Assembly: GCA_946407095.1 (NCBI GenBank) | Contig: CAMJMR010000009.1 | Location: 1 to 64,000 of the forward strand | Direction of reading: 5' to 3' | Source of the DNA: an uncultured Selenomonadales bacterium | GTDB lineage: Bacteria; Bacillota; Negativicutes; Selenomonadales; Selenomonadaceae | DNA length: 64,000 nt | In this document: in pieces, positions 28,952 to 43,981 of the stretch | How positions within the stretch are numbered: the first letter of the stretch is position 1 | Layout of the letters: the number at the start of each line of letters is the position of its first letter | Notes under the pieces: model-generated | The model's database searches: none | Told to the model about the DNA's origin: nothing | Seen by the model: the letters and a program-made list of their open reading frames with translations, nothing else | Program-made: the position numbers and the translations under genes

Positions 28952-29109
28952 TCGCAACAAAAAAGCCCCTCGCAAGCTCGCGGGGGGTTTTTGCTTATTC
29001 AAAGTCGGCGGAAGAGATTATCGGCTCGAAGTCGGCGGGATTAAAGTCGGCGGGCGTGTCGACGCTCGGAGCGCGAAGAATTTTTTTCCCGTCGAAGTCG
29101 GGCTTGCCG
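28952..29109. repeat. Direct duplicate of the topB 3' end plus terminator (copy A)
   Basis: About 158 bp here repeats 29203-29359 with few mismatches: terminator stem, attcaaagtcggcggaagag and onward to gtcgaagtcgggcttgccg. Copy B is the real end of topB; copy A encodes the same last ~37 residues (GKPDFDGKK(I/F)LRAPSVDT) detached from any gene. The ORF at 28995-29252 is a by-product of this duplication. Confidence 0.9.
28961..28992. terminator. Bidirectional terminator after superoxide reductase
   Basis: aaaagcccctcgc-aagct-cgcggggggttttt. It is part of the duplicated segment; the other copy is at 29211. Confidence 0.85.
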
Positions 29110-29200
29110 GCAACGTGACGTTGCATCCAATGGACGCGCCGTGCCGCTCGTGATTCAAAGGTAATCGCCGCGCCGAAACGCAACGCTGGCGCATTTCTAG
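29110..29200 (-). repeat. Type C dispersed repeat between duplicated topB ends
   Basis: Plus strand: palindrome gcaacgtgacgttgc, atccaatggacgcgccgtgccg, gattcaaaggtaatcgccgcgccgaaacgcaacg, and ctggcgcatttctag. This is the reverse orientation of the 28124 copy. It separates the two 158-bp direct repeats exactly. Confidence 0.8.
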
Positions 29201-29210
29201 ACTCGCAATA

Positions 29211-29242
29211 AAAAATCCCCTCGCAAACTCGCGGGGGCTTTT
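29211..29242 (-). terminator. topB terminator
   Basis: aaaaatcccctcgc-aaact-cgcgggggctttt, adjacent to the topB stop at 29245, with a T run on the leftward transcript. Confidence 0.85.
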
Positions 29243-29244
29243 GC

Positions 29245-31491
29245 TTATTCAAAGTCGGCGGAAGAGATTATCGGCTCAAAGTCGGCAGGATTAAAGTCGG
29301 CGGGCGTGTCGACGCTCGGAGCGCGAAGAAATTTTTTGCCGTCGAAGTCGGGCTTGCCGTCCTTGTCGTCGAAAGTCGTGCGGCATTTCGGATAGGACGC
29401 GCAGCCCCAAAATTCGCCGTTCTTGCCCTTACGCTTGACCAAGGCACTGCCGCAATTCGGACACGTGGGCGCGCCGTCTTTAATCAGCCGCGCCGCTCGC
29501 GCTTTGCCGTCGAAGTCCGGCTTGCCGCCGTTGTCGTCGAACGCCGCCTTGCATTCGGGATAGCCCGTACAACTCCAAAATTCGCCGTTCTTGCCCTTAC
29601 GCTTGACCAAGGCATTGCCGCAATTCGGACACTTGAAAACGCCTTCCGCCTCGACGAACTTCGCCGTCGTCGCCGCAGTGACCAGCTCGCTCGTGAATTT
29701 GACTTGACCAGCCAAAAAATCCTCAAGCGTGCCGTCACCCTCGCTCATTGAATGCAATTTGTCTTCCCAAATCGCGGTCGCGTCGGGATAAGTCATTTCG
29801 TCGGGCAAGGCGTCAATCAGCAGGTAGGCGCGCTCGGTCGGGTAAAGATTTTTCCTGCTGACCTTCAAGAAGCCGCGCTGTATCAAGTCGTCGATAATCG
29901 CCGCGCGCGTCGCCTCGGTGCCGATGCCGTAGACGTCCTTGAGCTGCTTTTTCGATTCGGGATTCTTAACGTACTTGTGGATGTCCTTCATGCCTTGAAC
30001 CAGGCTCGACGAAGTGAAACGCTTTGGCGGAGTCGTGGTGCCCTTCTTCAGCGAAGAGGCTTTGTGTTGAACGTCGTCGTCGGTTTGCATTTGCGGCAAA
30101 AGGGTTTCGGTCTCGTCGTCGGCCTTGACTTTCGGCGCAACGTAAAATTCTCGCCAACCAAGCTGCTTGACGACTTTGCCGCGCGCCGTGAAGGTCTCGC
30201 CCTTGTACTTGACGGCAATAACGGTCTCGTCGTAGACGTGCAACGGGTAGAACTGGACGGCGTAGTTTTTGGCGATAAGGTTGTAAACGTTGAGCTCGAC
30301 TTCGGGCAGGCTTATCGTCAAGGGCTTTTGCGTCGGGATGATGGCGTGGTGCGCGGAAATTTTTTTATCGTTCCAAGCGCGGCTTTTAATGGCGGCGGAG
30401 GCGTGCGTTGCCAAATTTTGCAGGCCCTCGTTGCCCGAACGCGTAAGGTTTCTTAAAATCGTCAGCGCGTCTTTGAATTGAGTCGTCGGCAAGAATTCGC
30501 AATCGGAACGCGGGTAGCTGGTCAATTTTTTTTCGTAAAGGCTCTGCGCGGCGTCCAAGACTTGTTGCGGCGTGTAGCCGAACGTTTTTCCCGCCGCCAC
30601 TTGCAACGTCGACAGCGAAAACGGCAGCGGTTGAGCCTCCTTGCGCTCGGTCGTCTTGTAGGAAGAAATTTTCCCGTCGAACGGCGCGGCTGAAAATTTT
30701 TTAATCAACTTCTCGGCGAAGGCTTTATCGATTAGGCGCCCCTCGCTGTCGAAGGCGGGCAAGTCAAGCATTTTCTTCGACGGCTTGAACTGCGCGACGA
30801 AATTACCGTTGTCGTGAACGAACGTCGTCCGAATGGTAAAAAAGTCTACGGGCTTGAAGTTTTGGATTTCGCGCTCGCGGCGCACGACCAAGGCAAGCGT
30901 CGGGGTCTTCACGCGTCCGACAGGCAAAACCAAATCGTGACCAAGCCTCCTCGCCGCCAAGGTGTACGCTCGCGAAAGATTCATGCCGATAAGCCAATCG
31001 GCACGGCTGCGGGCAAGCGCGGACTGCTTCAGGTTGAAAAAGTCGGCGTTATCCCGCAAGTCGTCGTTGGCGCGGCGGATACTCGTCTCGTCCAGCGCGT
31101 TGAGCAAAATTCGCTTGACGGGCTTCTTGTTGCCCAGGAAGTCAAGCACCTCGTCGACAAGCAATTGCCCTTCGCGGTCGGGGTCTCCGGCGTGAACGAT
31201 GACGTCAACATCTGCGCGGGCTATCAGTGCCTTGACGATTTGGAATTGTTGAACGGTCGCGGGATTGACTTCAAGCTTCCATTGACGCGGGACAATCGGC
31301 AAGTCCTCGGCTCGCCACGTTTTGTATTTTGGGTCGTAAGCGTCGGGCTCCGCCTGCTCCAACACGTGACCGATCAGCCACGTCACCAAGCCGCCCGCCG
31401 TGTTTATGAAACCGTTGCCCTTTTGAGGATTTTTCAAGCACGCGGCAATTTCTCGCGCCATCGACGGCTTTTCCGCTATGTAAAGTTTCAA
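29245..31491 (-). CDS. topB: DNA topoisomerase III (type IA)
   Basis: This type IA topoisomerase of about 748 aa has the N-terminal TOPRIM LYIAEKPSMAREIA, HAGDPDREGQLL with acidic metal ligands, RSRADWLIGMNLSRA, VGRVKTPTLALV and the active-site tyrosine in KKLTSYPRSDCEFLP. The C-terminus carries two nearly identical zinc ribbons (CPNCGNALVKRKGKNGEFW and CPNCGSALVKRKGKNGEFW) and the tail SVDTPADFNPADFEPII. I prefer TTG at 31491 (MKLYIAEKPS, AGGTGA 6 nt upstream) over GTG 31500, which sits in the ribosome site. It lies 15 bp after ctsR. Its 3' end is duplicated downstream with an inserted repeat. Confidence 0.94.
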   Translation of the reverse strand: MKLYIAEKPSMAREIAACLKNPQKGNGFINTAGGLVTWLIGHVLEQAEPDAYDPKYKTWRAEDLPIVPRQWKLEVNPATVQQFQIVKALIARADVDVIVHAGDPDREGQLLVDEVLDFLGNKKPVKRILLNALDETSIRRANDDLRDNADFFNLKQSALARSRADWLIGMNLSRAYTLAARRLGHDLVLPVGRVKTPTLALVVRREREIQNFKPVDFFTIRTTFVHDNGNFVAQFKPSKKMLDLPAFDSEGRLIDKAFAEKLIKKFSAAPFDGKISSYKTTERKEAQPLPFSLSTLQVAAGKTFGYTPQQVLDAAQSLYEKKLTSYPRSDCEFLPTTQFKDALTILRNLTRSGNEGLQNLATHASAAIKSRAWNDKKISAHHAIIPTQKPLTISLPEVELNVYNLIAKNYAVQFYPLHVYDETVIAVKYKGETFTARGKVVKQLGWREFYVAPKVKADDETETLLPQMQTDDDVQHKASSLKKGTTTPPKRFTSSSLVQGMKDIHKYVKNPESKKQLKDVYGIGTEATRAAIIDDLIQRGFLKVSRKNLYPTERAYLLIDALPDEMTYPDATAIWEDKLHSMSEGDGTLEDFLAGQVKFTSELVTAATTAKFVEAEGVFKCPNCGNALVKRKGKNGEFWSCTGYPECKAAFDDNGGKPDFDGKARAARLIKDGAPTCPNCGSALVKRKGKNGEFWGCASYPKCRTTFDDKDGKPDFDGKKFLRAPSVDTPADFNPADFEPIISSADFE

Positions 31492-33946: not shown

Positions 33947-34573
33947 ATGAAAAAATTTTTGATAGCGTTGATGATGATGGTCAGTGCGACGTGTTCGGCG
34001 GCGACGATTGAGACCGCTCACTTCAACAGCAACGACGAGCTGATTTATCCCGTGGTGCGCGTCGAGGACAAGGCTGTCGAGAAGAAAATCAATGTGGCGA
34101 TTATCGCCGAGATTGACCGCTTCGTCACGGGCGTCTACCGCAATGCCCAAGTCAACGGCTACGAGGTCGGCGGCGTTCACACGAGCTTCGACGTCGGCAG
34201 CAACCAGGCGGGCAACACCGTTATCCTAAGCCTCATCATTACCGAAAGCTGCTACTATAAAATGGCGGCGCATCCTTCGACTTTCCAACGCGCGCTCAAT
34301 TTCAACACGTCGAGCGGCGAGCTTATAAACATTGGCTACTTGACGGAAGTCGGCGAAGGTTTCAGGACGGGCGAATTGACTCAACGCCTCAACGAAAAAC
34401 TTCAAGCCAAAGTCGAACGAGAAAACCTTTTCCTGTTCCCCGAAGCCTTACCGCTGAAAGAATTGCCGCCCGATTTTTATTGGGATGAAAATCTTCACGT
34501 GCACTTTATCTTCCAGCAGTATGCGGTTGCGCCCTACGCGGCGGGCATTATCGACGTTGACATCGACGAATGA
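33947..34573 (+). CDS. Secreted DUF3298 (RsiV-like C-terminal) domain protein
   Basis: From ATG 33947 (GGGAGGTGTTTGAC upstream) this is a 208-aa protein with signal peptide MKKFLIALMMMVSATCSAA. YPVVRVEDKAVEKKINVAI is typical of DUF4163/DUF3298 openings, and AAHPSTFQRALNFNTSSGELI and YAAGIIDVDI correspond to the DUF3298 core and end. Homologous domains occur in RsiV anti-sigma factors and secreted proteins; here no transmembrane anti-sigma part is present. Function is unknown; it is probably extracytoplasmic. Confidence 0.75.
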   Translation: MKKFLIALMMMVSATCSAATIETAHFNSNDELIYPVVRVEDKAVEKKINVAIIAEIDRFVTGVYRNAQVNGYEVGGVHTSFDVGSNQAGNTVILSLIITESCYYKMAAHPSTFQRALNFNTSSGELINIGYLTEVGEGFRTGELTQRLNEKLQAKVERENLFLFPEALPLKELPPDFYWDENLHVHFIFQQYAVAPYAAGIIDVDIDE

Positions 34574-34597
34574 AAAAAGCCCGCGCAATCGGCGGGC
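34573..34597 (-). terminator. Terminator of the fmt-ruvB operon
   Basis: gcccgc-gcaatcg-gcgggc preceded on the plus strand by aaaaaa, giving a T run for leftward transcription; ruvB stops at 34604. Confidence 0.82.
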
Positions 34598-34603
34598 AGT
34601 GAT

Positions 34604-35638
34604 TCAATCTTCAAAGTCGAACAGCGTCGGCGTGGCGTCGTCAGCCTTCGGGAAGGTCAAGCCCAAATGACGATAAGCCGCCTCCGTGACGACGCGGCCG
34701 CGCGGCGTGCGCATGATGAATCCGAGTTGCAAAAGGTACGGCTCATAAATGTCTTCAATCGTTTCGCGAGTTTCACTTATGGCGGCGGCGAGCGTGTCCA
34801 ATCCCACGGGACGCCCGCCGAATTTTTTTATCATGGCGTCGAGCAGGCGGCGGTCGGTGTGGTCGAGCCCTGCGCGGTCAACTTCCAAGGCAAGCAAAGC
34901 TTTGTCGGCAATGGCGTCTGTTATAACGTCCGAGCCTTCCACTTGCGCGAAGTCGCGGACACGTTTGAGCAGACGGTTGGCAATGCGCGGCGTCCCGCGT
35001 GAACGGCGAGCAATTTCCTCTGCGCCGCCCGCTTCAATCGGTATCTTCAAAATCTGCGCGGCACGAGTGATTATTTCGACGAGCGCGTCGGTTGAATAGT
35101 AGTCAAGGCGGGAAATTACTCCGAAGCGGTCTCTTAGCGGCGGCGAGAGCGAACCCGCCTTGGTCGTCGCGCCAATCAGCGTGAAAGGCGAAATGTCGAC
35201 GCGAATGCTCCGAGCCCTTGGTCCTTTGCCGATTATGATGTCGAGCGCGAAGTCTTCCATTGCCGAGTAAAGAATCTCTTCGACTTGGCGGCTTAGGCGG
35301 TGAATTTCGTCGATAAACAGAACGTCGCGCTCCTGCAAGTTGGTAAGGATAGCGGCGAGGTCTCCTGCGCGTTCGATTGCCGGCCCCGACGTTTGACGGA
35401 AGTTTACGCCGAGTTCGTTTGAAATTATCGCGGCCAGTGTCGTCTTGCCGAGCCCCGGCGGGCCATAAAGCAAAACGTGGTCGAGAGCCTCCCGCCGAGT
35501 GATTGCCGCCTTGACGAACACCGAAAGGTTTGCCTTGGCCTTGTCCTGCCCAATGTATTCCGACAAGCGGCGCGGACGCAACGAGTATTGCCAATCGTCC
35601 TCAAGCTTGGCACCCGTCGCGATTATGCGTTCGTCCAA
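34604..35638 (-). CDS. ruvB: Holliday junction branch migration helicase RuvB
   Basis: This 344-aa AAA+ motor of RuvABC has [16 protein letters not shown], Walker [13 protein letters not shown], Walker [16 protein letters not shown], sensor [18 protein letters not shown] and the C-terminal winged helix [15 protein letters not shown]. The start is TTG at 35638, preceded by GGTGACGAC; the coding sequence overlaps the end of fmt by 16 bp. ruvA and ruvC are not adjacent, unlike the common ruvCAB order. Confidence 0.96.
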
Positions 35639-36513
35639 AGGTCGTCACCGCCCTTGTAGCCGCGCAGGAAGTCGCCCGCATTGAGCCGCTTGGAATTGGG
35701 GGCTTGAAGTTCCAAAATTTCCAGCGAGCCTTCACCCGTGCCGACGAAAAGCTTTTGGTCGACGATTTTAATCTGCGCGGGTGCAAGTTCTATATCGGCG
35801 AGCCGAGTCCGCCAAATCTTGAATTTGCCCGCCCGTGCCGAGCCGTACAGCCCGCGTACCAGATTGTGTATTGCCCGCGCAGGTTTTTGCCAATCGATTA
35901 GCCCCGTGTCTTTTTTGAGCAGCGGCGCGTAGGTCGAAAGCGAATCGTCCTGCTTGACGGGCTGAATCGTGTCGAGGTTGGCGAGCGTTTCAACCAACAG
36001 CTCCGCGCCCGCCGTCATGAGCCGTTCGCGCAATTCGGGCAAAATCATATCGTCGCCAATCGGCACTTCGCGCTTTAGAAGCATATCGCCCGTATCGAGC
36101 CCCGCGTTCATTAACATTGTCGTGACGCCCGTGACTTTTTCGCCGTTGATAATCGCCCACTCAATCGGCGCGGCTCCGCGATATTTCGGCAACAGCGAGG
36201 CATGAACGTTAATGCAACCGAATTTTGGCACGTCAAGCAGTTTTTGCGGGAGGATTTGTCCGAAGGCAACGACGACGATTAAATCGAGCTTGAAGTCGGC
36301 GATTTGCGCGATGACTTCGGGCGCGCGAACTTTGACGGGCTGAAGGACGGGCAGATTGTTTTCTTCGGCAAAGACTTTGACGGGCGGCGGCTGAAGCTTG
36401 TGACCGCGCCCTTTTGGTCTGTCGGGTTGAGTGACGACGGCGACGACGTTTGACTTAATGGCGTCGAGCGCGGGCAATGCGAAATCGGGCGTGCCCATGA
36501 AAATTATACGCAA
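35623..36513 (-). CDS. fmt: Methionyl-tRNA formyltransferase
   Basis: This 296-aa enzyme formylates initiator Met-t[15 protein letters not shown] opens the protein; the catalytic loop is [17 protein letters not shown], followed by [17 protein letters not shown], and the C-terminal OB-type domain follows to LWTNA. The start is TTG at 36513 after AAGGAGG. The gene is usually next to def; here it is upstream of ruvB and downstream of a small Ada-like gene. Confidence 0.95.
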
Positions 36514-36525
36514 ATCAAAACCTCC

Positions 36526-36747
36526 TTAGGGTTTGCAACGCTTGCAGGGGATGTAGCCGGCTTTAACGGCCTCTTCGCGCGCGTTGAAGTAGACGCGATG
36601 CTTTTGGTTCATCTTGCGGGCGTAAGTGCAGTTGGCGTAGTGAAATTTCCCGCTGTTTCTGTTGCCGACGTAGCTTGACGCCAAAACCGAAGCGAAAGAC
36701 GCCGTCAGCACGACGAGCGCAACAATCGCCGCGAAAAATTTTTTCAT
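36526..36747 (-). CDS. Small secreted Ada-type zinc-binding domain protein
   Basis: This 73-aa protein has a signal peptide (MKKFFAAIVALVVLTASFASVLA) followed by the Ada-like metal-binding pattern YVGNRNSGKFHYANCTYA and EEAVKAGYIPCKRCKP. The domain commonly sits at the C-terminus of secreted nucleases; here it stands alone, so any activity would depend on a partner. AGGAGG precedes the ATG. It lies between the AmmeMemoRadiSam gene and fmt with gaps of about 12 bp, hence likely co-transcribed. Confidence 0.8.
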   Translation of the reverse strand: MKKFFAAIVALVVLTASFASVLASSYVGNRNSGKFHYANCTYARKMNQKHRVYFNAREEAVKAGYIPCKRCKP

Positions 36748-36759
36748 GACGCACCCTCC

Positions 36760-38154
36760 TCAGTGGTGCCGCACGACTTCAAATCTGAACAGCGCAACCT
36801 TTTCTTCGGGACGAATGCCCGCCTTGCGCTTGGCGATGGCGATTTGCTCTTCGGGTGTGTCGACGCCTTCCAGGTCGGGCAACAGCAAGCCGCGCCGCCC
36901 GTCATTTTCGACTATCACGCCGAAACGCCGCGCATCCAAATCCTTCAGGCTGAAAACGCGTTCGGGCTCGCCCAAAACGTCTACGCTGTATTCGATGTCG
37001 TCAAGCTCCTCAATCGTCACGGGGTCGAAGCGCGGGTCTCTTGAACAAGCCGAAATCGCATTATGAATAATTTCTTCAGCCAAGTTGTCTTGCGTCGCCG
37101 CTATCGTGCCGATACAGCCGCGCAGGTTGCCGTCCTTGTGCAAGCTTACGAACGCGCCCGCTCGGCGATTGGTCAGCTCTTCGGGCAAGTGGTCGGGCAA
37201 AACGGCAGTCTTGCGCGTCCTCACGAAGGTTTCAAGGCTGTAGCGCGCCAACTTGACAAAAGCGTCCTCTTTAGCCCTGCGCTTAGCCGCCGCGTCCGCT
37301 TTGAAGCGCTCAAGTTGCGTGGCGAAGTTCCGCGAATCGTCAGCCGCGCCGACGTTGAAATAGACAATGCCGTAGCCGACGCCGAACGTTCCCTCGTAAG
37401 ACAGCCGCTCCGCCTCGACGGCAAGCTTATCCAACGCTCCCGCCATTATCCAGAACGAACGCAAACCGCATTCCGCCGCCCGACTGCAAAGCTTATCGTC
37501 CATAGTCAACAGGCTCAAAAAATCTGCGCGGCTCAAGTTGTTCATAAGCTGTCCGTCGAAGATGGGACCCTCGTCAACGAAACCGTAAGGCCCGTCGGCT
37601 TTCAGCTTGTGTGACAAATCGCCGCTGGCAAGGAAGAAAATTTTTCGCCCAATTTCGTCCGCGACGTGCGCGATAATCTGTCCAAGCTTGTAATGATCGG
37701 CGGCATCCAGCCCGCTCAAGCCTATGCGCAAAAATTTCACGCTGTCGAAGTCAAGCCCCGCCTTTTGCAAGAAACGCAACGGAATCATGGTGCCGTGGTC
37801 AAGTGACGGGTTGCGCTCGCCCAATGTGCCTGCCGCCACGCCTTCCGCCATCGTCGACGACGTAAGCTTCTGAACGAATTCGACATCGTAATTGACGGCA
37901 AGAGCCACTTGCGGTGCGCGGAATTGTTCCATGGTGCCTGCCGCGCCTTCGCCCGGCGATATGTGAAAGTAGTCGGTGTACATTACCGTATGCGGGCTCG
38001 TGATTATAATCGTTTCGGGTTCAAGCTCGACGATACGCCGTGCCACTTCCTCGTAAGCCGTCGTCGTTGCTGAAATTTTTTCTTCCTCGCCGCGTCCGAC
38101 TTCGGGCAAGATTATCGGCGGATGCGGGACTGCTGCCGCGCCTAATATACTCAT
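36760..38154 (-). CDS. AmmeMemoRadiSam system B/A fusion (MEMO1-like plus AMMECR1-like)
   Basis: This 464-aa fusion starts at ATG 38154 (MSILGAAAVPHPPIILPEV; GGAGGTG upstream). The N-terminal half is the MEMO1/class III dioxygenase-like AmmeMemoRadiSam B protein (ITSPHTVMYTDYF, ASGDLSHKL). The C-terminal half from about residue 275 is AMMECR1-like protein A (FVSLHKDGNLRGCIGT, AISACSRDPRF, EYSVDVLGEP). In this system A, B and a radical SAM protein co-occur; the radical SAM partner is not in the window. Biochemical function is unknown. The ORF-track extension to 38373 runs into a repeat element and should be ignored. Confidence 0.92.
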   Translation of the reverse strand: MSILGAAAVPHPPIILPEVGRGEEEKISATTTAYEEVARRIVELEPETIIITSPHTVMYTDYFHISPGEGAAGTMEQFRAPQVALAVNYDVEFVQKLTSSTMAEGVAAGTLGERNPSLDHGTMIPLRFLQKAGLDFDSVKFLRIGLSGLDAADHYKLGQIIAHVADEIGRKIFFLASGDLSHKLKADGPYGFVDEGPIFDGQLMNNLSRADFLSLLTMDDKLCSRAAECGLRSFWIMAGALDKLAVEAERLSYEGTFGVGYGIVYFNVGAADDSRNFATQLERFKADAAAKRRAKEDAFVKLARYSLETFVRTRKTAVLPDHLPEELTNRRAGAFVSLHKDGNLRGCIGTIAATQDNLAEEIIHNAISACSRDPRFDPVTIEELDDIEYSVDVLGEPERVFSLKDLDARRFGVIVENDGRRGLLLPDLEGVDTPEEQIAIAKRKAGIRPEEKVALFRFEVVRHH

Positions 38155-38178
38155 TGAATTTGACACCTCCAAAAAAAT
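38153..38178. repeat. Direct repeat (copy A) flanking the type A element
   Basis: attgaatttgacacctccaaaaaaat matches 38427-38452 (attgaatttgacacctccgaaaattt). Copy A supplies the ribosome site and start of the leftward AmmeMemoRadiSam gene. Confidence 0.85.
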
Positions 38179-38426
38179 CAATGCGACAACGCCATTAAAG
38201 GCCGCCCAAGGACGGGCGGCCGTCGCCGACGCTTTTGCGTGATGCAAAAACCGTCGGCGCAAGCGAGCTGAAAATATCGGACGGCGCGGGTTGCGACCTT
38301 TCGCCCCTGCGAGGGGTCCTTTCTTTTGCAACTTTTCTTTGGACAAGCAAAGAAAAGTTGATCCTAAGCACAAAAGTCATTGACACGTTGAATCGAAGGG
38401 ACGCGCCCGCCGCCTTAAAGCCACTG
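38179..38426 (-). repeat. Type A dispersed repeat between 26-bp direct repeats
   Basis: On the minus strand it reads aggatcaacttttctttgcttgtccaaagaaaagttgc, then ctcgcaggggcgaaaggtcg, cgcgccgtccgatattttcagc, the hairpin cgccgacggtttttgcatcacgcaaaagcgtcggcg and ggccgcccgtccttgggcggcc. The same series is found at 42295. It separates the divergent AmmeMemoRadiSam and BofA-like genes; this 340-bp gap has no other gene. Confidence 0.82.
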
Positions 38427-38433
38427 ATTGAAT

Positions 38434-38462
38434 TTGACACCTCCGAAAATTTTTTTTATTAT
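38434..38462 (+). promoter_or_regulatory. Promoter of the bofA-like gene and leuS
   Basis: TTGACA (38434-38439) lies inside direct repeat copy B; after a 17-bp spacer comes TATTAT (38457-38462). The same TTGACA in copy A is on the far side of the repeat element. Confidence 0.65.
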
Positions 38463-38498
38463 AACACGTCGAATCAACAAGGCAAAGGAGGCCTCAAC

Positions 38499-38738
38499 AT
38501 GATAGAAACTGCCGTGGGCTTGGTGGCGGGCGTGCTGATTCTCGCCGCGCTGATTTTTTTCATCCAGTTGCCCTTCAAAATAATTTGGAACAGTATAGTC
38601 GGCGGCGTGATTCTTTGGCTCGTGAACTTGACGGGAATTTTGACGATTAAGATAACTTTTATTCATGCGCTGATAGTCGGCGTGTTCGGAGTGCCGGGGC
38701 TGATTCTGTTGGCGATTTATCTGAACTTTATCAAGTAG
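38499..38738 (+). CDS. BofA-family small membrane protein
   Basis: This 79-aa protein has three hydrophobic segments. The C-terminal IVGVFGVPGLILLAIYL and the middle IVGGVILWLVNLTGI match the pro-sigma-K processing inhibitor BofA family. In Bacillus BofA inhibits the SpoIVFB protease; Negativicutes keep homologues even where sporulation genes are lost, so the role here is unclear. AAAGGAGG precedes the ATG. leuS follows after an 80-bp hairpin-rich gap. Confidence 0.8.
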   Translation: MIETAVGLVAGVLILAALIFFIQLPFKIIWNSIVGGVILWLVNLTGILTIKITFIHALIVGVFGVPGLILLAIYLNFIK

Positions 38739-38811
38739 GGAATGAGGGAAGCAGGGAAGCAGCATTCTAATTCCCTATTTCCCTGCTACCATACTTCCCT
38801 TACCAAGGAGG
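38739..38811. repeat. Gggaa/ttccc hairpin repeat (copy 1)
   Basis: ggaatgagggaagcagggaagcag faces ttccctatttccctgctacc, forming an imperfect stem. A related unit is found at 58816-58886 between hyaA and hyaB. It lies directly upstream of the leuS ribosome site; no T-box motifs are seen. Confidence 0.65.
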
Positions 38812-38818
38812 CTTTTAC

Positions 38819-41281
38819 GTGGAAAAATACAATCCTCAAGCTATCGAAAAGAAATGGCAAGCGGTCTGGAACGCGCCCGACTACTACCGCACGACCGAAG
38901 ACGACTCGCGACCGAAATATTACGCGCTGGAGATGTTTCCGTATCCTTCGGGCAATTTGCACATGGGTCACGTCCGCAACTACTCAATCGGCGATGTGGT
39001 TGCGCGCTATCGTTCAATGGCGGGCTACAACGTCCTGCACCCGATGGGCTTCGACGCCTTCGGCATGCCCGCAGAAAACGCCGCCATTGCTCACGGAGTC
39101 AAGCCCGGCAACTGGACGTTCGCCAATATCCGCAACATGACCGCTCAGCAAAAGGCAATGGGGCTCGCCTACGATTGGAGCCGCGAAGTCGAAACTTGCC
39201 GCGCAGATTATTATCGTTGGACGCAATGGCTGTTTGAATTGTTTTACAAGCGCGGGCTCGCTTACAAGAAGGAGGCCGCCGTCAACTGGTGTGACAAGTG
39301 CGGCACCGTCCTCGCGAACGAACAGGTTATCGACGGAAAGTGCTGGCGTTGCGATTCGGAAGTCCACAAGAAAAATTTGGCGCAATGGTTCTTCAAAATC
39401 ACCGCCTACGCCGACGAATTGCTTGCCGACCTCGACAAACTCACGGGCTGGCCGGCTCGCGTCAAGACCATGCAGGAAAATTGGATTGGACGCTCGGAGG
39501 GCTTGGAAATCACTTTGGACGCGCCCGAACTCGGCGAAAAAATTTCCGTCTACACCACGCGACCCGATACGTCTTTCGGCATAACTTTCCTCGCGCTCGC
39601 GCCCGAACACCCGCTTGTTGAGAAAATCCTCGCGCGCAGCCCGAAAGCCGACGAACTCAAAAAATTTGTCGACAAAGCCCGCGCTCACAGCGACATCGAA
39701 CGCACGTCAAGCGAATCCGAAAAGGAAGGCATCTTCACGGGCTTCTACTGCGTCAATCCTTTCAACGGCAACAAAGTTCAGATTTGGATAACGAACTACG
39801 TCGTCTTTGAGTACGGCACGGGCGCGGTCATGGGCGTTCCTTCGGGCGACCAACGCGATTGGATGTTCGCGAAAAAATACGGGCTCGACATCATCTTGAC
39901 GCTTCAACCCAAGGGCACGGAGCTTAAGCTTGAGGAAATGGACGCGGCCTACGTCGAACACGCAGGCGTTTTGGTTAATTCGGGCAAGTTCACTGGCATG
40001 GACTTCGACGCGGGCTTCAAGGCGATAATGGACGAGGCTGAGGCTCAAGGCTTCGGCAAGCGCAAAGTCAACTATCGTCTGCGCGACTGGCTGATAAGTC
40101 GTCAACGCTATTGGGGCGCGCCCATTCCCGTCATCTACTGCGACAAGTGCGGCGAAGTTCTTGTTCCCGAAGAGCAATTGCCCGTTCACCTGCCCGACGA
40201 CGTCGAATTCAAGCAAGGCGCGTTGAGTCCGTTGTCGACAAGCAAGCACTTCGTCGAATGCACTTGCCCGAAATGCGGCGGTCACGCTCACCGCGAAACC
40301 GACACGATGGATACGTTCATTTGTTCAAGCTGGTATTACATGCGCTACACCGACCCGAAGAATGACAAGCTGCCTTTCGCCCGCGACAAAGTCAACTACT
40401 GGAGCCCTGTCGACCAATACATTGGCGGCATTGAGCATGCGATTTTGCATTTGCTGTATTCGCGTTTCTTCACGAAGGTTTTGCGCGACGCCGGCATGCT
40501 TGACTACGACGAGCCCTTTGCCAACCTGTTGACGCAGGGCATGGTTATCAAGGACGGCGCGAAGATGTCGAAGTCTTTGGGCAACGTCGTGAGCCCCGAA
40601 GAGATTATCGGCAAGTACGGCGCGGACACGGCAAGATTGTTTATCCTGTTCGCCGCGCCCGTCGAACGCGACCTGGATTGGAGCGACGAAGGCGTTCAAG
40701 GCTCGTTCCGCTTTTTGAATCGCGTCTGGAGGATTTTGAACATTTTCGCCGACGCAATCAAATCGCCCGACACCGCGCAGGTTTTGACGGCAGAGGAGAC
40801 GGCATTGCGGCGCACGCTTCACAAGACGATAAAAAAAGTCACGGAGGACGTCCGCGACCGCTTTGCGTTCAACACGGCGATAAGCGCGCTGATGGAGCTG
40901 GTCAACGCAATGCACGCCTTCCAAGACAAGCCGATTAACCCGACGCTCGCCCGCGAACTTGCCCGCGACCTGCTGTTGATGCTCGCGCCGTTCGTGCCGC
41001 ACATTTCGGCGGAGTTGTGGAGTCAATTCTTCGACGGCGACGTTCACAAGCAAGCGTGGCCGACCTTCGACGCGAAGGCTGTCGTGGAGGACGAAGTTGA
41101 AATCGTCGTGCAGATTAACGGCAAAGTCCGCGACCGAATCAACGTGGCAGTCGGCTTGAGCAAGGCTGACCTTGAGGCGTTGGCGCCGACACTTCCGAAA
41201 GTGCAAGCCTTGACGGCCGGCAAGCAAATCGTCAAGATTATCGCCGTCCCTAACAAGCTGATTAACATTGTCGTGAAATAA
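38819..41281 (+). CDS. leuS: Leucyl-tRNA synthetase
   Basis: This 820-aa class I synthetase has the HIGH-type motif in [16 protein letters not shown], a zinc knuckle [12 protein letters not shown]...CWRCDSEV, editing domain TTRPDTSFG and [27 protein letters not shown], and KMSKS in [12 protein letters not shown] near residue 580. The anticodon-binding domain and C-terminal tail complete the protein. The start is GTG at 38819 after AAGGAGGC. A hairpin terminator follows the stop. Confidence 0.97.
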
Positions 41282-42270: not shown

Positions 42271-42294
42271 TTGAAAACCTCCTTTTGTCAATTA

Positions 42295-42547
42295 GGGACT
42301 GTTGGTAAATGGATTTTAGGATCTACTTTCTTTTGCTCACCCAAAAGAAAGTAGCAAAGAAAAACCTCATGCTTGCCAGCGCGCATTCGCCCTCGCAGGG
42401 GCGAAAGGTCGTAACCCGCGCCGTCCAATATTTTCAGCGTGGTTGCGCCGACGGTTTTTGCATCACGCAAAAGCGTCGGCGACGGCCGCCCGTCCATGGG
42501 CGGCCTTTAAGGGCGCGTTCGTCGACTTACCATTTGCCAACAGACCC
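42295..42547 (+). repeat. Type A dispersed repeat, complete (253 bp, terminal inverted repeats)
   Basis: The left end gggactgttggtaaatgg and the right end ccatttgccaacagaccc are inverted copies. Between them are actttcttttgctcacccaaaagaaagt, ctcgcaggggcgaaaggtcg, cgccgtccaatattttcagc, cgccgacggtttttgcatcacgcaaaagcgtcggcg and ggccgcccgtccatgggcggcc. It has no ORF of its own. It ends exactly at the stop codon of the DUF6056 gene. Structure suggests a MITE mobilised in trans. Confidence 0.85.
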
Positions 42548-43981
42548 TCATTCGTTGACTCCTACGACGTGCTTGACGCCGTAATATTGCGCTACCAGCA
42601 TGTTCAGGCAAAAGTACGGATTCTCGTTGACGCCCGCCAAAAACTTCATGTAGGGCACCGCGCTCCTGTCGCCTTGAATTTTTTCGAAGCGGTGACGGAC
42701 GGGCATTATCGGCAGCTGTATAGGGTCAAGCTCGGCGTTGCGGTGAATGTAGCGCACTTGCCGACGCGCCGCGTTGAATACCGATATGTCGACGTAGATG
42801 AACGTCAGGAAGTACGCAACCAGAATCGAAGTCAGCACCGTCGACACCCCGCGCAGGAATTTTGGCGGCAGTTGCAAGTTGAACTTGAGACTTTGCCGCT
42901 CCATTTCCAAAATCGCGCTCGTCGACGAAACCAGCACGAACGCCAACGACGGCACCGACACCCGCAAGTTGAATTCGGGGGAAAAGAGCATCGCCGCCGG
43001 CACAAGCAAGCCCGCCGTCGCGAACGCCAACATCAAAACATCCGCCGTCGACAAACTTCCGAAGCCGCGCCGCAAAAAATATATGAACATCGGAATCAGC
43101 GCAATCAAATCTGCTCCGACGACGCGGTCAAAGCCCTCCGTCAAGTGCTCGTAGAAAAGCTCCTCGGTGTAGACGAAGTTCGGGTGCGCGAACTCCAAGC
43201 GTGCGAAATTCCCCGGTGCAAGCAACATGAACGCGCAGCCGACAATCAAAGCCGCCAAGCCCGCCATCATCCACGGACGGAAGACGCCGCGCGCCTTGCA
43301 CATGGCGATTAGTAACAGCGTCAAGCAGACGGTAGCCAAAGCCCCCGCCTCGTTCGACCAGCCCGCCAACAGCCCAAGCAAAATCATCAGCACGACGTTG
43401 AGCGCGGAATTGCCCGCCTCGCGCGAACGCAACGCTTTGACGTACGGCGTAAGGAAAAACAGCTGGAAGAACGCCATCCACATGTAATTGCACGCGCCCG
43501 TCAGCCAAAGCATACTCGTCAGCGAACACGCCGCCAACAGAAAAAAACTCAAAAAAATCCAGACCAACGCTTTGCGCGAAATTTTCAGCCACGTGTTGGC
43601 CAAGTTGATTATCGTCAAGATTAGGAAGACGAACATCACGGTATTGGCCACGTCGAACACGGGCTTGCCCAGCCATATGAAAAATTGCGCCAGCCCGTGC
43701 GCAAAAATCCTGCCGCCCCACGTGAAGTAGTGAGACTCCATCGAGCGGACAATGTCGTTGAGAGATTCGACTCGTTGACGGGTTTCGACTTCGGGCGAGC
43801 CGACTTGCATTGCCTCCAAGTTGCCGCCGTGTTCGCCGTCCCAAATGAACGCGTAGGCGTAATCGTCGTGACTTAGCGGCAAAAGCGTCGTCCTTACGAA
43901 AAAAAATCCCGCGAACGTCACGAACAGAATCAGCGAGCGCGACGAGTTCAGCGTGCGATTTATGTATTGGAAAAAGCTCAA
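42548..43981 (-). CDS. DUF6056-like polytopic membrane protein
   Basis: This 477-aa protein has about ten hydrophobic segments, an N-terminal helix followed by LPLSHDDYAYAF (an acidic DD after TM1, as in GT-C fold glycosyltransferases) and WGGRIFAHGLAQFF. It matches my memory of DUF6056, found in surface polysaccharide loci. It may be a GT-C type glycosyltransferase or modifying protein using lipid-linked sugar (inference from fold). The start is TTG at 43981, overlapping the sirtuin stop, with GGAGGC upstream. Its stop codon adjoins the type A repeat, which may have replaced the original downstream sequence. Confidence 0.75.
   Translation of the reverse strand: MSFFQYINRTLNSSRSLILFVTFAGFFFVRTTLLPLSHDDYAYAFIWDGEHGGNLEAMQVGSPEVETRQRVESLNDIVRSMESHYFTWGGRIFAHGLAQFFIWLGKPVFDVANTVMFVFLILTIINLANTWLKISRKALVWIFLSFFLLAACSLTSMLWLTGACNYMWMAFFQLFFLTPYVKALRSREAGNSALNVVLMILLGLLAGWSNEAGALATVCLTLLLIAMCKARGVFRPWMMAGLAALIVGCAFMLLAPGNFARLEFAHPNFVYTEELFYEHLTEGFDRVVGADLIALIPMFIYFLRRGFGSLSTADVLMLAFATAGLLVPAAMLFSPEFNLRVSVPSLAFVLVSSTSAILEMERQSLKFNLQLPPKFLRGVSTVLTSILVAYFLTFIYVDISVFNAARRQVRYIHRNAELDPIQLPIMPVRHRFEKIQGDRSAVPYMKFLAGVNENPYFCLNMLVAQYYGVKHVVGVNE

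Follow-up and report, generated by a model that had tools for sequence, protein, structure and literature searches.

A hairpin-rich repeat with a long target duplication in the shared control region of divergent MEMO and bofA-leuS genes of a rumen Selenomonadaceae bacterium

How can a mobile repeat settle in a control region that has no base to spare, and what becomes of the two genes that share it? The question is raised by a 64,000-nt stretch of DNA (the window) from a rumen Selenomonadaceae bacterium, in which a LigB/AMMECR1 fusion gene (AmmeMemoRadiSam type, 'MEMO gene'; 36760-38154, minus strand, start at 38154; 464 aa, intact) diverges from a bofA-like gene (38499-38738, plus strand; 79 aa) and leuS (38819-41281, plus strand), with a tight shared control region. 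The locus provides a before-and-after case of such an entry, in which a long target duplication gives each neighbour its own copy of the shared stretch. In comparison with the nearest relative found (locus L061, CAMZAX010000001.1, an uncultured Selenomonadales metagenome assembly; hereafter the sister), the MEMO protein is 89% identical and the reading frame of its gene is intact, with dN/dS of 0.11; dS of the adjoining genes is 0.33-0.60.

Positions 38149-38175 (copy A) and 38423-38449 (copy B) form a direct repeat of 27 nt with 25/27 identities. The first-pass annotation had recorded a repeat of 26 bp here; the repeat is real, its length is corrected to 27 nt and the sequence printed for it is an 18-nt exact core. 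This core has no third site with ≤2 mismatches in 522 kb of the studied genome (the part of that genome that was compared; the genome is about 89% complete) or in 1.89 Mb of the sister genome, and the flanking-repeat alignment score is 23.5, compared with a mean of 8.0 for randomly paired junctions of other indels. Copy A, which corresponds to the lone copy in the sister locus, carries on the minus strand the MEMO start codon (ATG, 38154-38152) and ribosome site (GGAGGTG), while copy B holds TTGACA, the -35 box of bofA-leuS, and the former start codon there reads ATC. The first reading, that the repeat combines the MEMO ribosome site on one strand with the bofA-leuS -35 on the other, and that copy A retains the leftward ribosome site and copy B the rightward -35, agrees with these positions. 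The copies differ at two positions, one of them the start codon, and copy A matches the sister at both. An extra T common to copies A and B is missing from the sister, as expected if the stretch was copied after the two genomes split.

In the sister the two genes are likewise head to head, with a single copy of the 27-nt stretch and no insert (CATTGAATTGACACCTCCAAAAATTTTTTTTATTATAACACGTCGAATCAACAAGGCAAAGGAGG). BLAST comparison of the two loci maps window positions 34001-38175 and 38424-38739 to sister positions that overlap by 25 bp, so that about 25-27 bp were duplicated with the insertion. Because the sister site has one copy and no insert, and because the segment between the copies is an interspersed repeat, the duplication appears to have arisen together with the insertion. 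There is no sign of an ancestral site with two copies, which would have undone the original claim; the element-free relative has one. Among relatives whose MEMO-type gene or bofA was inspected, no third genome with the two genes head to head was found, and the polarity assumed here (empty site as the older state) rests on one relative. The studied genome and the sister are both metagenome assemblies; collinear flanks and the two base differences between the copies argue against an assembly artefact. No donor for the 20-bp sequence at the left junction was found in the DNA compared.

The segment between the copies (38176-38422, plus strand; 247 bp, 55% G+C) is a non-coding, hairpin-rich, multicopy interspersed repeat that is inserted at junctions between genes. 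It has at least 40 matches in its own genome versus 12 partial matches in the sister, and no Rfam match to a known structured RNA. Aligned copies have three hairpins, with compensating changes in 11/38 predicted pairs. Palindrome 1 (38200-38221; GGCCGCCC..GGGCGGCC) and palindrome 2 (38224-38259; CGCCGACG..CGTCGGCG) are recognised by sequence and by paired changes across copies, and palindrome 3 (38329-38360; CAACTTTTCTTTG..CAAAGAAAAGTTG) is the module most widespread in the genus. The element is a mosaic: a copy at 42390-42515, 4 kb away, shares 94% identity with its left half, and one on contig C2 shares 92% with its right half. A second such repeat (42293-42549), inverted with respect to the first and with ends GGGACTGTTGGTAAA / TTTGCCAACAGACCC, separates a HIT-family gene from its neighbour upstream; the corresponding site in the sister is empty. 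Inverted repeats GGGNCTGTTGGTAAA form the ends of some related copies (180 occurrences of the motif in the genome with ≤1 mismatch, versus 0 for a reversed control), while the studied copy has neither end. The terminal motif GGGNCTGTTGGYAAR, with about 180 copies, often in inverted pairs 225-315 bp apart, marks a large MITE-like family, for which no mobilising transposase was found. This related terminal-repeat family may duplicate a TA target, to judge from one nested insertion.

Within the region of the two predicted promoters, a 47-bp stretch is the same base for base in the studied genome and the sister, against dS of 0.33-0.60 in the adjoining genes; the predicted MEMO promoter falls in this stretch. 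In the promoter scan, the predicted bofA-leuS promoter (38434-38462, plus strand; TTGACA-17-TATTAT, 11/12 matches) is the same in the sister, and the predicted MEMO promoter (38458-38485, minus strand; TTGCCT-16-TGTTATAAT, with a TG extension, 10/12 matches) is conserved there. The former is made complete by copy B, and the ribosome site and start of the MEMO gene are retained in copy A. The predicted MEMO promoter, which the first-pass annotation did not record and which overlaps the bofA -10, was left beyond the element, and the distance from its -10 to the ATG is 303 bp here versus 28 bp in the sister. The annotated claim that both genes keep their signals therefore stands for the MEMO ribosome site and start and for the bofA-leuS promoter, and fails for the MEMO promoter, displaced to 303 bp. 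The predicted MEMO transcript now passes through the element, and the promoter scan identified no terminator-like site or nearer promoter for the MEMO gene on its strand.

The bearing of duplication length on these signals was evaluated by enumerating every insertion point of the 59-bp interval bounded by the MEMO start and the distal edge of the MEMO promoter, and scoring both promoters and both ribosome sites. With a 27-bp duplication all four signals remain whole at 58/59 insertion points, compared with 0-5 of 59 for duplications of 0-5 bp, and an insertion between the MEMO ribosome site and the bofA -35 leaves both intact only if the duplication is 11 bp or longer. By this count a long duplication suffices to spare the signals, which is no demonstration of selection; that it made this insertion tolerable we infer. 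Tolerance is only partial, because the MEMO promoter was moved away.

Between stretches of the studied genome and the sister there are 48 indels of 120-520 bp, only two of which are element insertions with long flanking repeats by pairwise score: the studied site and one on contig C4 (C4:48742). At this second site, between genes for larB and an aldo/keto reductase (C4:48697-49010; L267 8697-9010), the element lies between two copies of the larB C-terminal codons. In the sister, larB ends ASKINRRR-TGA, overlapping the ribosome site of the reductase gene; in the studied genome this end is ASKINRMR-TAA upstream of the element and ASKINCAR-TAA downstream of it, where the reductase gene then starts. 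The gene is presumably larB, a name suggested by an AIR-carboxylase-type Pfam match.

Including this one, there are four further insertions of the kind, each with target copies spanning an overlap of neighbouring genes, and the duplications at these sister-empty sites vary (7, 8, 10 and about 27 bp, in addition to the 27 bp of the studied site). At the junction of an MBL-fold gene and greA a 10-bp duplication spans the stop and the ribosome site. Between sufS and sufU (C4:79219-79437; L030 1473-1689) a 7-bp duplication falls in overlapping frames, and the ends of the insert supply a TAA stop for sufS and an AAAGGAG ribosome site for sufU. At a fabH-like/glycosyltransferase junction, with an 8-bp duplication, the stop is supplied by the insert. 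These gene identities are putative and were assigned from sequence motifs. The short duplications (7, 8 and 10 bp) are not above chance by pairwise score and were seen via one-copy sister sites. No duplication is visible at other insertions into tight junctions, so that duplicating the target is one of several ways to survive. Since both flanks have to align, insertions at tight junctions are also detected preferentially. A fixed long target duplication was rejected as a family property, since 0/28 other copies have a long flanking repeat by sequence alone; most element copies with an empty sister site likewise have no long duplication, so that a length of 27 bp is not intrinsic to the element.

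With a target duplication, an empty site, a multicopy element and both signals in place, we consider it probable that the hairpin-rich repeat was inserted at a staggered break and duplicated its target, the copies serving one gene each. A copy of the non-coding repeat would have entered a break, presumably staggered, between the MEMO gene and bofA-leuS, and fill-in of the ends would have left 25-27 bp of target on either side of it. The duplicated stretch carries the overlapping signals on opposite strands (MEMO ribosome site and start versus bofA -35), so that the left-hand gene would be served by the left copy and the right-hand gene by the other. With one copy for each neighbouring gene the insertion could persist, presumably under selection for tolerance; the start codon would have decayed afterwards in the right copy, and MEMO expression would go on through a leader of about 300 nt. 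The one-copy empty site, the many element matches here against few and partial ones in the sister, the T shared by both copies, the four other insertions with duplications across overlapping gene signals, the intact MEMO gene and the minimum of 11 bp for sparing both signals speak for this reading. The preponderance of sister-empty copies with no long duplication, the lack of terminal repeats, the displaced MEMO promoter and the single relative count against it.

The same end state would be reached if replication slippage had first duplicated the 27-bp stretch in tandem, the repeat being inserted between or at the copies later, and the scarcity of long duplications at related copies fits an element that need not make them. 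This order of events requires two independent steps, and the coincidence would have to be repeated at at least one other insertion (larB/aldo-keto reductase); we regard it as unlikely. Less probable still is that the filled state is ancestral and that, in the sister, recombination between the direct repeats of 25-27 bp removed the element, leaving a clean one-copy site. The element is indeed bordered by direct repeats, and the gene arrangement is common to only one relative, but full element copies are generally missing from the sister, and many sites filled in the studied genome are empty there, most of them without repeats able to drive a clean loss. That the repeat is a fixed feature of the element ends (e.g. 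terminal repeats) and not target DNA, as its presence on both sides of the element might suggest, is refuted by the empty site, which contains the 18-mer once, and the 18-mer is in none of the other copies examined; the idea can be set aside almost entirely.

It is conceivable, although we lean slightly against it, that hairpin-rich repeats insert with widely varying duplications and that selection keeps those spanning signal overlaps. The repeats would thereby un-overlap compact gene boundaries genome-wide, and in some cases, as at sufS/sufU, their own ends would contribute a stop codon or ribosome site. If the five-site pattern holds genome-wide, duplication length would be a measurable filter on the sites at which repeats survive, and insertion would be a route for separating overlapping bacterial gene boundaries. 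Rescue of overlapping gene signals by a target duplication was not reported in the papers searched, although this is only weak evidence that no such report exists.

The palindromic elements of Yersinia (YPAL / RU-2; De Gregorio 2006, as reviewed in PMC2229807) are an exception among bacterial MITEs, which for the most part end in TA and duplicate their target. YPAL/RU-2 have internal inverted repeats, are not A+T-rich and have no TA at their ends, and the target duplications reported for them range from 3 to 26 bp. The YPAL elements appear to be the closest known kind, and the element studied here may work like these, to judge from a likeness of features. As in YPAL/RU-2, it is a small, non-coding, intergenic multicopy repeat with 55% G+C and internal inverted repeats, without TA ends in this copy, with variable-length target duplications and with empty and filled sites between relatives. 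Unlike them, it belongs to a different bacterial class, is about 250 bp long (YPAL, 168), is a mosaic of hairpin modules and has as its target a control region with overlapping signals of two genes. The related high-copy family with GGGNCTGTTGGTAAA terminal repeats in the same genome resembles IS630-type MITEs (RUP, Correia/NEMIS, ERIC), whereas the studied copy has no terminal inverted repeat at either end and a 27-bp, not a 2-bp TA, duplication. REP/BIME are similarly high-copy, palindromic, mosaic intergenic repeats, from which the element differs in that its target is duplicated and no Y1 transposase was found in the genome. REP/RAYT mobilisation was accordingly rejected (0 PF01797 (Y1) matches in the about 89% complete genome; control genomes match), as were IS6-type mobilisation, hinted at by CTGTTG ends (no PF13610 match in the genome), and Ku end joining (no Ku gene found in the genome, 89% complete).

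Two further duplications were observed in the studied genome. At C2:12704-12926 a different hairpin repeat is followed by a duplicated gene start, element and start being present twice in tandem. In the window, 28983-29646 is a tandem duplication of several hundred bases with copies 83-96% identical, partly missing in the sister.
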